Source: Sphaerochaeta sp. (GTDB lineage Bacteria; Spirochaetota; Spirochaetia; Sphaerochaetales; Sphaerochaetaceae). Taken from it: 64,000 nucleotides of DNA. Shown here piece after piece: positions 41,363 through 46,529 of this stretch. The first letter of the stretch is position 1. Each line of letters starts with the position of its first letter. Both the position numbers and the translations under genes were made by a program. The stretch is taken from assembly GCA_022482495.1 (NCBI GenBank), contig JAKVPA010000004.1:62001-126000 (forward strand), given 5' to 3'. The notes below the pieces were generated by a model. The model did no database searches. It was not told where the DNA came from and was given only the letters and a program-made list of their open reading frames with translations.

Positions 41363-41920
41363 ATGCCCGTACAGTGTGGACTGTCCATCGAAGAATTTCA
41401 AGAGGAAAAGATGTCCGGAGCATACCGGACGGAACTGCTTGCGCGCTGCCGTCCGGCCCGCTGTCCTTCCTGCGGCGAATACGGCCGGATGCACGGCCAT
41501 GGGTTCGTCCGCCGCTATGCCATCATCCCTGACGGGACGACCCTCACACTTCTCGTGCCGGTATACAGATGCGCCCAGTGCGGGCGGCACATCCGGGTGC
41601 TTCCCCATGAAATGCACAACGGCTGCTGCCATGTGGCCCGGACCATCGTCAGCCTGCTTTCCCACAGGATCCGCACCGGCCACCACAAACGTTGCATGGT
41701 GCCGCGTTTCCTCCAGCACGCATGGTGGACCCGTTTCCTCATGAGGGTCCAGGATGCGGCGCTGGTGATGGACAATCTCCAGGGCGCTCTGGATTCCCTT
41801 CCGCCCTTTTCCCTCCTGTACCGGAAAACCTACCGGAGCGTGTACCAGGATGAGCCGCCGCCGTCCCGGCGTGCATCCCCACGGATTCTGCCTCTGGTGG
41901 TCTGCCTCGGCCATGGGTGA
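41363..41920 (+). CDS. DUF6431-like zinc-finger protein of the transposon
   Basis: The 185-residue protein has a CPSC pair near residue 36, a YRC-AQC pair near 70 with a GRH after it, and a following helical region (HEMHNGCCHVARTIVSLLSHRIRTG). Two CxxC pairs suggest a zinc ribbon. I know this type of protein mainly as a companion of rve transposases. The role is unproven; DNA-end or target binding is a guess. An ATG at 41411 behind AAGAGGAAAAG is an alternative start. Confidence 0.6.
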   Translation: MPVQCGLSIEEFQEEKMSGAYRTELLARCRPARCPSCGEYGRMHGHGFVRRYAIIPDGTTLTLLVPVYRCAQCGRHIRVLPHEMHNGCCHVARTIVSLLSHRIRTGHHKRCMVPRFLQHAWWTRFLMRVQDAALVMDNLQGALDSLPPFSLLYRKTYRSVYQDEPPPSRRASPRILPLVVCLGHG

Positions 41921-41957
41921 CACTTTCCCCGCACGCATGTGCGAAGGAGAAGACACC

Positions 41958-43190
41958 ATGGCGTTGACCAAGGAGGAAGAGAAGGCGCTCTTCCGCTTCA
42001 ACATCATCTTCCCGCTGCAGAACCTCAGCGGGAAGGACGGCTCCCTGTCGGCGAAGATACGGGAGATATGCTCGAGGGAATATCGCATCCCCCATTCCAA
42101 GAAGACGACCATCTCCCCGGGTACGGTGTGGAAATGGCTCCGCGCCTACCAGAAGACGGGCACCATCGACAGCCTCGCCCCGGCCCACCGGAGCGACCGT
42201 GGCAGGAGAAGATCAATCTCCGGGGAGACGGAGGATGCGCTGCTGCAGCGGTGGAAGGCGAATCCGGAGAAACCGCTGACCACCATCGTGAAGGAGATGG
42301 AGCGTGACGGCGTCTTCGGACCGGAAGACCGTGCGGGCATGGCCACCATCTATACGATCATCAACAGGGAGAAGAACGGCTGGGACCCGAAACAGCAGGA
42401 CCGGAGGGCGTACCGCGCCCCGTCCATCAATGACATGTGGCAGTCCGACGCGCTCCACGGCCCCATGGCCGTGATGCCCGACGGCAGCCGCCGCACCGCC
42501 ATCCTGTTCGTCTGCATCGACAACAAAAGCCGCCTGGTGTGCCATGCCGCATGGTATGGTGACGAGAGCGCGGACAGCTACCTTGACTGCCTGTGGCAGG
42601 CTTTCCGCCTGCGAGGACTTCCCAAGACGGTGTTCGTCGACAACGGGGCGTCCTTCCGTGACGACCGTCTCCGGCTGGGGTGCGCCCAGCTGGGGGTCCA
42701 CCTCATCTTCGCACGGCCCTATTCCCCAGCCTCGAAGGGTGTGGTGGAGCGCTGGAACCGCACGGTAAGGCAACAGTTCCTCTCCATGCTCCCCCGCGAG
42801 CCGCTGACGGTCACCGAGCTGAACATCCGCTTCGCACGATGGATCGACGAGTACAACCACCGGCCCCACATGACGCTGGACGGAATCTCGCCCCTGCAGT
42901 GTTATCTGGGGGAGCTCAAGGCCATCCGGCCGGCGCCCGACAACCTGCCCCTGTATTTCCGCAGGCAGGACACCCGTCTGGTCAACGCCGACAGGACCAT
43001 CCGTTTCCAGGGAAATCTGCTCGAGGTCCCCATCGGCTACGCCGGCAGGAAGATCGAGATACGCTGGTTCGGCGACGACCCCCTGCACACCTGCGAGGGG
43101 TTCTTCAACGGGGCTTCCATCGGACTTCTCCGGCCGGTTGACCGGACGGCGAACTATTTCGCCCGCCGTTCCCAAGGGGGTGTGCGATGA
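41958..43190 (+). CDS. DDE integrase-type (rve) transposase
   Basis: The 410-residue protein starts MALTKEEE behind GAAGGAG. The N-terminal HTH is of the IS481/Mu style (TISPGTVWKWLRAYQKTGTIDSL). The catalytic core shows MWQSDALHGPMAV (Asp), VFVDNGASF (Asp) and ASKGVVERWNRTVRQ (Glu). A C-terminal Mu-type beta domain follows (IRFQGNLLEVPIGYAGRKIEIRW). DDE is complete, so it may be active. Confidence 0.9.
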   Translation: MALTKEEEKALFRFNIIFPLQNLSGKDGSLSAKIREICSREYRIPHSKKTTISPGTVWKWLRAYQKTGTIDSLAPAHRSDRGRRRSISGETEDALLQRWKANPEKPLTTIVKEMERDGVFGPEDRAGMATIYTIINREKNGWDPKQQDRRAYRAPSINDMWQSDALHGPMAVMPDGSRRTAILFVCIDNKSRLVCHAAWYGDESADSYLDCLWQAFRLRGLPKTVFVDNGASFRDDRLRLGCAQLGVHLIFARPYSPASKGVVERWNRTVRQQFLSMLPREPLTVTELNIRFARWIDEYNHRPHMTLDGISPLQCYLGELKAIRPAPDNLPLYFRRQDTRLVNADRTIRFQGNLLEVPIGYAGRKIEIRWFGDDPLHTCEGFFNGASIGLLRPVDRTANYFARRSQGGVR

Positions 43191-44077
43191 GCCCGTCCAC
43201 CCAGCGGAACGCCAACGTCCCCATGACCCAGTTCTTTGAACTCCGCCGCCAGCCGTTCCCCCAGACGCTCCATCCCAAGGAGATGTACGCGCTGCCCCAG
43301 ATGGAGGCCGTCAGCGGCATGACCGAGTTCGCCTTCCAGAACAGCATGTTCTACGCCATCATCGGCGCGGTCGGATGCGGCAAGTCAAGCGCCTTGCGCT
43401 TCGCCTGTGACCGGCTCGCCCAGCACCAGGCGATGGTGCTGGAGGTAGTCGGTGGCATCTGGTCCTTCACCGAGTTCCTCCGCCAGATCCTCGCCGCCCT
43501 GGGCATCGAGTTCAAGCCCTACCAGCCGTCGGTCATGGTCAGACTCATCCAGGAACGGCTCATCGCCATCCAGAATGACGGCAAGAAGTGCATTCTCATC
43601 GTCGACGAGGCGCATCTGCTGCGCGGCGATGTGTACGCCCAGCTTCACATTCTCTCCCAGCATCCGGAGGCGAAGCGTCCGCTTTTCTCCCTGATGCTCT
43701 GCGGGCAGGAGGAGCTCGCCGAGAAACTCTCCTATCCCCAGGCAAGGCCCCTGATGAGCAGGATCGCCGAAGGCTTCTACATGCAGCCGCTTGGCAGGGA
43801 TGACTTCGACGGGTACATCGGCCACCACATGCGCCTCGCCGGCGCGAAAGGGCAGGTATTCGACGCCATGGCCCTCGACGCACTCTGGCAGTGCTCCAAC
43901 GGGAACCTCCGTTCCATCGGAAACCACGCCCTTTCCGCGCTCCAGTATGCCGCCAACACGGACTGCCGCATGGTGACCGCGGAATGCGTACGCAAATCCC
44001 AGCGGGCGCTCTGGGGCCAGCCGGTACAGCCCGTGACGGACCCGTCAGCCATGGTGCAGGCCAGACCCGGATGGTAG
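43187..44077 (+). CDS. ExeA/TniB/MuB-like AAA ATPase of the transposon
   Basis: The 296-residue protein begins with the ExeA-style FFELRRQPFPQTLHPKEMY. Walker A GAVGCGKSSALRFA is near residue 62, Walker B KKCILIVDEAHLL near 135 and the arginine-finger region RPLMSRIAEGF near 187. These ATPases select targets and activate a DDE transposase. Its ATG overlaps the transposase stop. Confidence 0.88.
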   Translation: MSPSTQRNANVPMTQFFELRRQPFPQTLHPKEMYALPQMEAVSGMTEFAFQNSMFYAIIGAVGCGKSSALRFACDRLAQHQAMVLEVVGGIWSFTEFLRQILAALGIEFKPYQPSVMVRLIQERLIAIQNDGKKCILIVDEAHLLRGDVYAQLHILSQHPEAKRPLFSLMLCGQEELAEKLSYPQARPLMSRIAEGFYMQPLGRDDFDGYIGHHMRLAGAKGQVFDAMALDALWQCSNGNLRSIGNHALSALQYAANTDCRMVTAECVRKSQRALWGQPVQPVTDPSAMVQARPGW

Positions 44078-44496: not shown

Positions 44497-45113
44497 AGCT
44501 ACCCACTATAAACAGCGAAAGGCCACGAGTGAATAGAAATCTTCCGGGAAAATGAGTAGATATGTGGAATGGGACGAAATAGAGTATTCTGATGAATTTG
44601 GAGACAAATCGAGAGACTCTACCGTGGCTATCATGGGCTTGTCATACTGATTAACAAGGACAATTTCTGGCATGAAAGTGGTGAAAAAAAGGCCGGCTGA
44701 CAGCCTGATAATGTTGTGAGGGAAATTAATCTTGCAAGTATTATTTTCTTCATACATCATACCTTGATTTTATAGTTTGCCGGTGAGTATTTGTTGACCA
44801 GAGGTAAAAACAATGGAAGAGACAACTCATTTTGAAACCCTCAGTAATGGAGTATTTGCAACATTGTCGTTCTTTGAGAGATGGCGTATGTTTTTTTCTG
44901 TGAACAGGACAATACCATGTTTGGATAAGTCGGATGGGAAGATGCGGAGGCAAGAAAGCTCCATGATGCTCGTATGATTCTTGGATTGTTTGAGACGAAG
45001 TATGCCCCATCGGTGTGTGACCTCCTGTTGCTGGGAGGGGAAATCAACAAAAGGTATTGGTGTGGGAGATGTACGGTCTCCCGTTTTTCATCTGCAACGG
45101 AAAGGACTTGTAA
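44497..45113. other. non-coding or degenerate stretch
   Basis: There are no convincing genes. A short plus-strand frame at 44552 (MSRYVEWDEIEYSDEFGDKS, 32 codons) and a longer minus-strand frame at 44506-44760 show no recognisable domain. The stretch is AT-rich and probably made of leftovers of inserted elements. Confidence 0.4.
45064..45088 (+). terminator. terminator-like hairpin upstream of the DUF4143 gene
   Basis: GGGAGA and TCTCCC enclose TGTACGG and are followed by GTTTTT. Confidence 0.55.
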
Positions 45114-45224
45114 TCGGAAGTTCTGTGTAATGTGCATGAAGTTCCGAATGGAGGTTGCCTTTGGCGGAATCGTGTGATAGTATGTATTCGGAAGTTTTGT
45201 GTAAATGTGCATAATTTCCGAATG
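45114..45224. repeat. two copies of a long dyad repeat before the DUF4143 gene
   Basis: Copy 1 (45114-45150) and copy 2 (45188-45224) both read TCGGAAGTT, then TGTGTAA-ATGTGCAT, then TTCCGAATG, so each has TCGGAA and TTCCGA arms around a shared core. The copies are 74 bp apart, and the second ends 10 bp before the likely start codon. They are candidate operator sites or a mobile intergenic repeat. Confidence 0.7.
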
Positions 45225-45233
45225 AGGTCTTGG

Positions 45234-46529
45234 ATGATCTGTACCAGAGAAAGCTATATCGACGCATTGAAACAAAGCAGGTTCAACGGGTTGGTCAAAG
45301 TACTTACCGGTATCAGACGGTGCGGGAAGAGCTTTCTTTTGTTCAAGCTCTATCATGATTTTCTGATTTCGGAAGGAGTCAAGGAAGATCACATCATCAT
45401 GATCGCTCTTGATCGGATAGAGAATGAACGTCTTTGTGACCCGCATGAGCTCTATCAGGCCATCATGCAGAGGATCATCCATACGGATCAACCATATTAT
45501 GTGTTCATCGATGAGGCCCAATATGCCATTTCCAAGGAGGAACTGGCAGTGAAGGACAAACCGTTTGGGCTGTATGGTGTGCTCAACAGCCTGCTGCGGA
45601 TGCAGAATGTGGACGTGTATGTGACGGGAAGCAACTCACGGTTTCTCTCCACCGATGTGATGACCGAATTTCGGGGAAGAGGGGATGTGATCCCTGTGTA
45701 TCCGTTACGCTTTTCGGAATTCTTTTCGTGCGTTGGAGGCGACAAGGCTGATGCCTATGAAAGCTATGCCCTGTATGGAGGCATGCCGTATGTACTCAAT
45801 CTGGATCAAAACGAAAAGAAGCAACGGTATCTCTCCGGATTATTTGAGGAGATTTACTTCAAAGACATTGTGGAACGATATGGAATCAAGTACCAAGCCG
45901 CGCTTGGCATGATCACCGACGCGCTCTGTTCTTCCATCGGCTCCCTGACCAATGCAAGCAAAATCTCCCGGACATTGACCAGCGCATTGGGGAAGCGCAT
46001 CGATGCAGAAACCGTTTCATCGTATCTCAGGTATCTGTCCGATTCGTTCCTGTTCTGCGAAGTGAAACGGTATGATGTGAAAGGAAAACGATATTTTCAG
46101 TATCCGAGCAAGTATTTCTGTACCGATGTGGGGCTGCGGAACGCCAGACTCAACTTCCGCCAGCAGGAAGAAAGTCATCTGATGGAAAACATCATTTTCA
46201 ATGAATTGGTCGCACGGGGCTACCATGTGGATGTTGGTGTGGTCAACCATTCTGAGAAGGGGGCGGACGGAAAACAGGTGAGAAAGAACCTTGAGGTTGA
46301 CTTTGTGGTCAATTTGGGGATGGACCGCCTGTATATCCAGTCCGCTCTGTCCGTCGACGACGAAAAGAAAAAACTCCAGGAAAAGCGATCATTGCTGGCG
46401 ATCCGTGATGGGTTTCGGAAAGTCATCATTACAAAAACCCGGGCAAAACCGTGGCTGGATGAAGATGGGATTCTCCGGCTTGGACTGTACGATTTTCTCC
46501 TGGATCAAAACAGTTTGCGGAGTTGGTGA
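45234..46529 (+). CDS. AAA ATPase with C-terminal DUF4143 domain
   Basis: The 431-residue protein has Walker A GIRRCGKSFLL near residue 24 and Walker B YYVFIDEAQY near 89. VYVTGSNSRFLS near 124 is typical of the family, and the C-terminal DUF4143 nuclease-like fold shows ENIIFNELVARGYHVDVGV and KNLEVDFVV. These proteins are widespread, often in many copies, and their role is not settled. ATG 45234 is chosen because family members begin just before YID; 45222 is possible but lies inside the dyad repeat. Confidence 0.9.
   Translation: MICTRESYIDALKQSRFNGLVKVLTGIRRCGKSFLLFKLYHDFLISEGVKEDHIIMIALDRIENERLCDPHELYQAIMQRIIHTDQPYYVFIDEAQYAISKEELAVKDKPFGLYGVLNSLLRMQNVDVYVTGSNSRFLSTDVMTEFRGRGDVIPVYPLRFSEFFSCVGGDKADAYESYALYGGMPYVLNLDQNEKKQRYLSGLFEEIYFKDIVERYGIKYQAALGMITDALCSSIGSLTNASKISRTLTSALGKRIDAETVSSYLRYLSDSFLFCEVKRYDVKGKRYFQYPSKYFCTDVGLRNARLNFRQQEESHLMENIIFNELVARGYHVDVGVVNHSEKGADGKQVRKNLEVDFVVNLGMDRLYIQSALSVDDEKKKLQEKRSLLAIRDGFRKVIITKTRAKPWLDEDGILRLGLYDFLLDQNSLRSW

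Follow-up and report, generated by a model that had tools for sequence, protein, structure and literature searches.

Two nested dyads before a DUF4143 ATPase gene of Sphaerochaeta as a putative private operator pair recognised by the ATPase

Results

A gene for an AAA_14/DUF4143 ATPase, located in a 64,000-nucleotide stretch of a Sphaerochaeta genome (contig JAKVPA010000004.1, positions 62,001 to 126,000; the whole stretch is called the window below), is preceded by two operator-like nested dyads, O2 and O1. Comparison of the dyads and the encoded proteins across homologues makes it probable that O2 and O1 form a private operator pair of this gene, bound by the ATPase and shutting its own promoter. 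Recognition of the dyad by the ATPase itself is strongly supported by covariation: in the sequences compared, two or three amino acids of the ATPase predict, in part, the sequence of its palindrome.

The dyads, the promoter hexamers, the ribosome-binding-site-like sequence and the ATPase gene lie on the plus strand. O1 (45186-45223; ATTCGGAA...TTCCGAAT) is located at the expected transcription start, and its outer arms (45186-45193 and 45216-45223) enclose a core at 45198-45212. O2 (45112-45149; AATCGGAA...TTCCGAAT), with outer arms at 45112-45119 and 45142-45149 and a core at 45124-45137, lies upstream and pairs with O1 at a lag of 74, the spacing being 74 bp from centre to centre. Between the two dyads, the -35-like hexamer TTGCCT (45155-45160) is followed after 17 bp by the -10-like hexamer TAGTAT (45178-45183), and together they plausibly form a sigma70-like promoter; homologues match a promoter at the same offset from O1. 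The -10 hexamer is offset by -27 from the centre of O1, within the modal range of the homologues. A ribosome-binding-site-like TGAGGT (45223-45228) comes after O1, and the intact ATPase gene (45234-46529, 431 amino acids), assigned by its domain and PADLOC PDC-S01 matches, begins with the ATG at 45234.

A sequence-only reading of this DNA had described two near-identical dyad units 74 bp apart before the ATPase gene. Both units are present at that spacing, and they are duplicates; "near-identical" is slightly generous, as O2 and O1 agree at 27 of 38 positions without gaps and, by eye, at about 34 of 39 with two one-base gaps. The core of O2 is one base short (TGTGTAATGTGCAT), and one extra base further to the right compensates for it, so that the spacing of the outer arms is preserved. 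Because of this indel, a search of the whole window for the core with up to three mismatches misses O2 and returns one match, O1, against 0.03 expected. The direct repeat of O2 and O1 scores 24/34 at lag 74, above the 99th percentile of dinucleotide shuffles (23), which is exceeded by 5 of 236 control genes. O1 alone has an 18-pair dyad score of 12 and does not rise above the shuffle threshold of 13. The single O1 dyad is modest, and the signal lies in the duplicated, nested and positioned whole.

Privacy of the dyad sequence

The dyad sequence of the window is private to one place in its genome. With up to two mismatches, the core occurs there once; with up to three, the full nested pattern finds O2 (0 mismatches), O1 (1 mismatch) and one poor three-mismatch match elsewhere. 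In 101 genomes (its own and those of relatives), none of 13 other core-like sites lies directly before a DUF4143 gene, the following gene being the next open frame as judged by eye. When the whole upstream DNA was used as the query against 61 genomes, only its own copy was retrieved. One operator sequence common to DUF4143 copies, as the sequence-only reading had suggested as one possibility, is contradicted by these searches: further copies before other DUF4143 genes of the genome were absent, an outcome which that reading had itself named as counting against it. The notion of a shared operator fails in sequence and survives in kind, since many close homologues have the same architecture with a sequence of their own.

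The genome of the window contains, on contig 3, a second close DUF4143 homologue, a pseudogene with two in-frame stops (L004), which retains a different dyad, CTGTAAT...ATTACAG, before its start. The operator pattern of locus L021, searched in two genomes, was found only in its own O1 and O2 and in the O1 of its orthologue, and that of L083, searched in four genomes, only at its own two sites. Two operator patterns, the only two tried, had no exact match in viral contigs and thus gave no hint of the sites marking targets in phages.

The architecture in homologues

Upstream DNA was collected for homologues from a protein search, comprising 30 loci of the same phylum and, from species genomes, the 80 best among 575 confirmed loci; by record title, they come from Spirochaetes, Clostridia, Bacilli, Actinomycetota, Bacteroidales and Lentisphaeria. 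Of these 110 loci, 92 were non-redundant and formed the first set, and 236 genes of the same loci served as controls. A direct repeat at a lag of 62-79 with a score of at least 20/30 precedes 39 of the 92 homologues and 2 of the 236 controls, and over all lags tried the repeats of the homologues cluster at 66-77. A dyad scoring at least 12 precedes the start in 30/92 homologues compared to 9/236 controls (Mann-Whitney p of the pre-start dyad scores, 6e-15). Once 80 loci had been added, 189 of 190 had a usable gene, and the 159 non-redundant ones were divided into 125 close genes (at least 42% identity) and 34 distant genes (below 42%). A cross-validated dyad model places 37, 57 and 72 of the 125 close genes above the 99%, 95% and 90% control levels, respectively. 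The dyad is thus common, yet not always recognisable by symmetry.

Counted from its centre, the dyad consists of an inner arm, where pairing peaks at position 6 (89% paired), a weakly pairing and often A-rich spacer at positions 8-11, and an outer arm at positions 12-17 (71-88% paired). Of the 142 close genes that reach a dyad score of 9.5, 90 have, at the expected place to the left of O1, a -35/-10 pair that matches the consensus in 9 or more of 12 letters, compared to 6, 8 and 6 in three shifted windows. Relative to the centre of O1, the start of the -10 hexamer is mostly located at -28 to -25. A clear O2 is present in 51 of the 142, at a median lag of 74 (39 at 72-77, 10 at 64-70 and 2 at 84-85). 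From the positions of the promoter and O2, it follows that O2 touches the -35 hexamer and that O1 covers the expected transcription start. DUF4143 relatives of several phyla carry, each with its own different sequence, a nested dyad at the same place, often in the order O2, promoter, O1.

Covariation between the ATPase and its dyad

Protein columns were compared with operator bases after overall protein distance had been removed. In the first round, 88 of the 125 close genes were used; the other 37 were excluded because the dyad scored low or its position was an outlier, so that genes were selected by symmetry only. Residue 259 tracked base 15 (z 10.0) and residue 350 tracked base 6 (z 7.5), compared to maxima of 6.0 in 200 permutations of base 15 and 5.8 at 36 decoy positions, and the left and right half-sites, taken separately, point to the same residues. 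With 142 genes, the top five of 6,498 residue-base scores were 259/15 (12.0), 259/16 (9.5), 340/4 (8.2), 350/6 (7.1) and 350/7 (6.3), and decoy scores were at most 6.0. In the window, these residues are Glu259 (codon 46008-46010), which would read the outer arm, and Ser340 (46251-46253) and Arg350 (46281-46283, in the β-hairpin of the nuclease-like domain), which would read the inner arm.

The pairs follow a simple code. In cases where both half-sites agree, residue 259 pairs with base 15 as Asn with A (42/45), Glu with G (22/23) and Lys with C (17/20), and residue 350 pairs with base 6 as Arg with G (72/80) and Gln with T (15/18). Textbook contacts are Asn with adenine, Glu with cytosine and Lys with guanine (the latter two on the opposite strand), Arg with guanine and Gln with adenine; the observed pairs fit them, which was counted in favour of the ATPase reading the dyad. 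The protein and site of the window obey the code, with Glu259 matched by G at base 15 and Arg350 by G at base 6 and T at base 7.

The association persists between close relatives. Among 68 disjoint closest pairs, base 15 is unchanged in 35 of 39 with the same residue 259 and changed in 18 of 29 where residue 259 differs (p 7.6e-6, column 259 ranking first among 342); for residue 350 and base 6, the corresponding counts are 38/41 unchanged and 14/27 changed (p 5.1e-5). Two proteins that are 88% identical differ as Asn and Lys at residue 259, and their sites differ as A and C at base 15.

A rule fixed on the first 88 genes (residue 259: Asn to A, Glu to G, Lys to C, Pro to T at base 15; residue 350: Arg to G, Gln to T at base 6) was then applied to a held-out set, mostly the family of a Butyrivibrio genome, with 144 loci, 143 of them usable and 99 non-redundant in upstream DNA relative to the earlier genome loci. 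A register rule for odd-centred dyads was set down in the script ahead of scoring. Among genes with a dyad scoring 10 or more, the rule for residue 259 was right in 34 of 35, compared to a mean of 12.0 and a maximum of 20 in 1,000 label shuffles; with no threshold it was right in 54/69 (shuffles: mean 20.9, maximum 30). These shuffles ignore relatedness, for which the closest-pair test corrects in part. Of the roles that the sequence-only reading had listed for the dyad, that of a recognition site for the ATPase is the one strongly favoured by this tracking of its predicted DNA-reading residues.

Domains and predicted structure of the ATPase

The window protein matches PF13173 (AAA_14; E 4.4e-26) and PF13635 (DUF4143; E 7.6e-17), as well as six PADLOC models of the family PDC-S01, the best being PDLC04787 (E 5.6e-108). 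We take PDC-S01 to be the same family as COG1373. The Walker A, Walker B and sensor residues Gly31, Lys32, Asp93, Glu94 and Asn134 are invariant in two alignments (26/26 and 55/55 proteins). In the AlphaFold2 model (predicted local distance difference test, pLDDT, 89.6), and in agreement with fold neighbours, residues 216-285 approximately (45879-46088) form a winged helix-turn-helix. Residue 259 is the second residue of its recognition helix (258-270), which follows helices 221-233 and 241-252 and precedes a β-wing (274-281). Residues 340 and 350 lie near the tip of a long hairpin of the C-terminal domain, on its two strands (331-342 and 348-361). As 9 bp, nearly one helical turn, separate base 6 from base 15, both readers could share one face of the DNA.

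The nearest solved folds for residues 1-307 are the archaeal ATPases PABY2304 (2qen, Z 17.8) and SSO1545 (2fna, Z 17.6), at only 20% identity. Further neighbours include STAND proteins such as plant NLRs and CED-4, with Apaf-1 in the Foldseek list, and Orc1/Cdc6 (2qby, Z 13.2). The C-terminal domain taken alone (model pLDDT 80.7) best matches the PD-(D/E)XK proteins Cdn1 (Z 8.9), McrC (8.8) and Can2 (8.6), with Card1 also among these matches (Z 8 to 9), at Foldseek E values of only 1.9e-3 and above. The motif E354-x-D356...Q369 is kept in 74/74 aligned proteins, and column 371, that of the catalytic lysine, is never Lys, being Ala or Ser in 40/40 close proteins and Ala, Ser, Thr or Cys in 34/34 distant ones. 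A lysine may be supplied from elsewhere.

A published description of PDC-S01 has an ATPase joined to a PD-(D/E)XK member, counts 9,986 occurrences in archaea and 29,494 in bacteria, and states that most PDCs of the core set still await experimental validation (PMC12988326, available passages). In a rumen survey it was the single locus encountered most often (PMC13356809, available passages), and among prokaryotic defence families it is reported to rank fourth in frequency. The open literature on the family that was searched gives, in the passages available, no mechanism for PDC-S01 and no operator or sequence recognition for DUF4143/PDC-S01 proteins. By its membership of PDC-S01, the window ATPase is a candidate for an antiviral role.

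Genomic surroundings and distant relatives

Just upstream of the DUF4143 gene, a transposase of the rve type and an AAA_22 ATPase are encoded in tandem in the window (41850-44077), which suggests an element with a transposase and an ATP-dependent helper beside it. A Fic-like neighbour, identified by eye, stands at 8 of 80 DUF4143 loci (L052, L062, L081, L090, L101, L113, L120 and L122); Fic proteins are another defence-island class. The plasmid database PLSDB has 221 records with a homologue, 171 of them from Acinetobacter. A circular record of Prevotella nigrescens (NZ_CP133466.1, 2,630 bp; L270) encodes a DUF4143 ATPase together with a TaqI-like specificity domain and nothing else. In another strain (L419), two Eco57I-type methylase genes flank the same gene, with an Mpi-type serine recombinase alongside, as if the circle had been excised from an invertible restriction cassette.

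In the distant subfamily, a 26-bp dyad scoring at least 9 precedes 34 of 61 non-redundant genes, viral contigs included, compared to 69/243 controls (p 3.4e-5). These dyads lie upstream of the -35 hexamer or overlap it; in several genes, outer arms of the AGTTT...AAACT type stand directly upstream of it, with differing inner letters. In L181, L182, L187 and L209, the dyad seems by eye to enclose the -10 hexamer (e.g., TTTGGA-ATATAA-TCCAAA in L181). Private operators may thus hold beyond the close subfamily, with another layout.

Discussion

Proposed mechanism and points against it

Based on the results presented above, the ATPase, probably dimeric or in a higher oligomeric state, would bind each 38-bp dyad and apply two readers to every half-site: the recognition helix of the winged helix (residue 259) on the outer arm and the DUF4143 β-hairpin (residues 340 and 350) on the inner arm. 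The DUF4143 domain would in this case be a PD-(D/E)XK-like fold without the catalytic lysine that reads the inner arm. Bound at O1, over the transcription start, and at O2, beside the -35 hexamer, the ATPase would shut its own promoter, possibly with the two sites bridged across about seven helical turns, and the AAA+ part may act as a nucleotide-driven switch that releases or rearranges the complex in response to a signal. Judged only by the position of the sites, self-repression is the most likely function of the private operator. Direct binding, the oligomeric state, repression over activation, looping and the signal are parts of the mechanism that we infer.

Several observations weigh against this mechanism. 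The cross-validated detector clears the 95% control level in only the 57 of 125 close genes given above, and in 82 of 224 close genes the symmetric model finds no dyad that scores 9.5 or more. The O2-O1 lags of 64-70 (10/51) do not correspond to whole helical turns. In the held-out set, the rule for residue 350 was right in 24 of 28, barely above shuffles (mean 20.3, maximum 25.5), a weak test because Arg and G dominate there. Among leftover genes outside the first 88 together with viral contigs, residue 259 was right in 20/38 with no threshold and 7/9 at a score of at least 9.5, and residue 350 in 13.5/33 and 3/7, respectively; this test is weak partly because most of these genes have no clear dyad and odd-centred dyads shift the inner register. 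In addition, covariation speaks to recognition and not to its outcome, which may be activation instead of repression.

Alternative explanations

A last point against the mechanism, 13 G/T compared to 4 A/C stem mismatches, is the bias expected of an RNA hairpin, and leads to the alternative that the dyad acts in the 5' leader, where the ATPase or a ribosome-level effect would control translation of its own mRNA. Such a hairpin would be placed as O1 is, where the mRNA is predicted to begin and immediately ahead of the ribosome-binding site. However, O2 precedes the promoter and would not be transcribed from it, which makes control at the RNA level less likely, and a clear O2 is found in 51 of the 142 genes. 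Residue 259 begins a winged-helix recognition helix, its preferences are those of major-groove contacts, and the distant-subfamily dyads are placed upstream of or across the -35 hexamer. Taken together, an RNA hairpin is improbable.

Slightly less probable still is that the dyads are the ends or integration sites of a mobile cassette carrying the ATPase gene, the private sequence being its recombination specificity. The observations that would fit are a further dyad copy that follows the stop codon within 300 nt in 12 of 140 homologues, compared to 0 of 138 control stretches (L134, L094, L169, L149, L158, L130, L032, L138, L146, L128, L124 and L286), in some cases only 7-50 nt behind it, and the presence of homologues on plasmids, on viral contigs and once on the 2,630-bp circle. 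However, 128/140 homologues have no further copy behind the gene, the main pair stands on one side of the gene around the promoter, and the domain search revealed no recombinase domain in the window protein. Nine of the twelve places were inspected by eye: in L134 the further copy begins a partial tandem duplicate of the gene, and the others have no second gene copy right behind. An empty site for the window gene was not found, the flanks of its relatives being too diverged. The third copy may be a terminator, a third operator or a cassette end. The suggestion of the sequence-only reading that the dyad is a mobile repeat spreading these genes thus gains little, with a further copy in these 12 homologues and none in the rest.

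That a host regulator binds the dyads in place of the ATPase is what one would expect of operators in general, which normally bind separate regulators. The dyad sequence nevertheless varies from gene to gene at a constant position and tracks residues of the ATPase, and across the 80 loci no constant partner gene is present, the most shared neighbour occurring in 8; a host regulator is slightly less probable again. The least probable alternative is an activating or origin-like site at which the ATPase acts like Orc1/Cdc6 or a plasmid Rep protein, with autoregulation secondary, since the presence of Orc1/Cdc6 among the fold neighbours and the resemblance of direct repeats beside the own gene to iterons are set against sites that coincide with promoter elements, copies that are mostly single genes on chromosomal contigs, and a sole tiny circle that matches a restriction-cassette arrangement on a large replicon of another strain and may be excised or misassembled.

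Comparison with known systems

With these alternatives weighed, a private operator pair read by the ATPase can be compared with known regulators. In paired-operator autorepressors and in BrxR/CapW-type winged-helix regulators of defence loci, palindromic operators bracket or overlap the promoter. The window and its homologues resemble them, as palindromic sites lie at the promoter of the gene that would be controlled, and two cognate-looking sites bracket it. Unlike in either group, a single polypeptide with two DNA readers and an AAA+ core would here serve as both regulator and candidate effector, and each gene appears to have its own specificity. Diverged repressor-operator pairs, each private, are also the basis of phage heteroimmunity; the private, diverged protein-site pairs are alike, whereas here a single free-standing gene is present and no lysogeny module.

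The STAND regulators MalT and mycobacterial IniR combine an SSO1545-type ATPase core with a DNA-binding domain, as here. For IniR, resemblance to SSO1545 and binding to the iniBAC promoter have been reported (PMC5760070, available passages). Compared to the window protein, IniR is longer and includes a sensor-like domain, and the operon under its control is a separate one, whereas here sites were found only before the own gene. For SSO1545 and PABY2304 themselves, no DNA target was found in the open literature searched. The window protein matches the PDC-S01 family models, and the available literature passages on PDC-S01 (PMC12988326) mention no operator or sequence recognition, unlike what is proposed here. 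The family is already known as a defence candidate. What appears to be new is that one protein may unite an AAA+ switch, a candidate effector and a bipartite DNA reader, with a specificity that diversifies gene by gene.

Implications

A broader interpretation is put forward tentatively, as a possibility that is much less probable than the operator assignment and falls somewhat short of an even chance. In the subfamilies examined, PDC-S01 proteins may be self-contained gene-operator units and not nucleases, with private sites through which copies control or exclude their own kind. Each would be a STAND-like AAA+ switch in which a former nuclease domain has turned into the second half of a bipartite DNA reader, and the site of each copy would be written by a short residue code. 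The specificities of paralogues would then diversify as in phage heteroimmunity, and incoming elements with the same site would also be controlled or excluded.

The private operator and the residue code provide a handle on a very common, uncharacterised ATPase family. If they are true, specificity would be swappable by one residue, and binding would be directly testable. The "nuclease" label of PDC-S01 would become doubtful, and the family would offer a natural set of DNA readers that are linked to an AAA+ core and whose specificity can be read.
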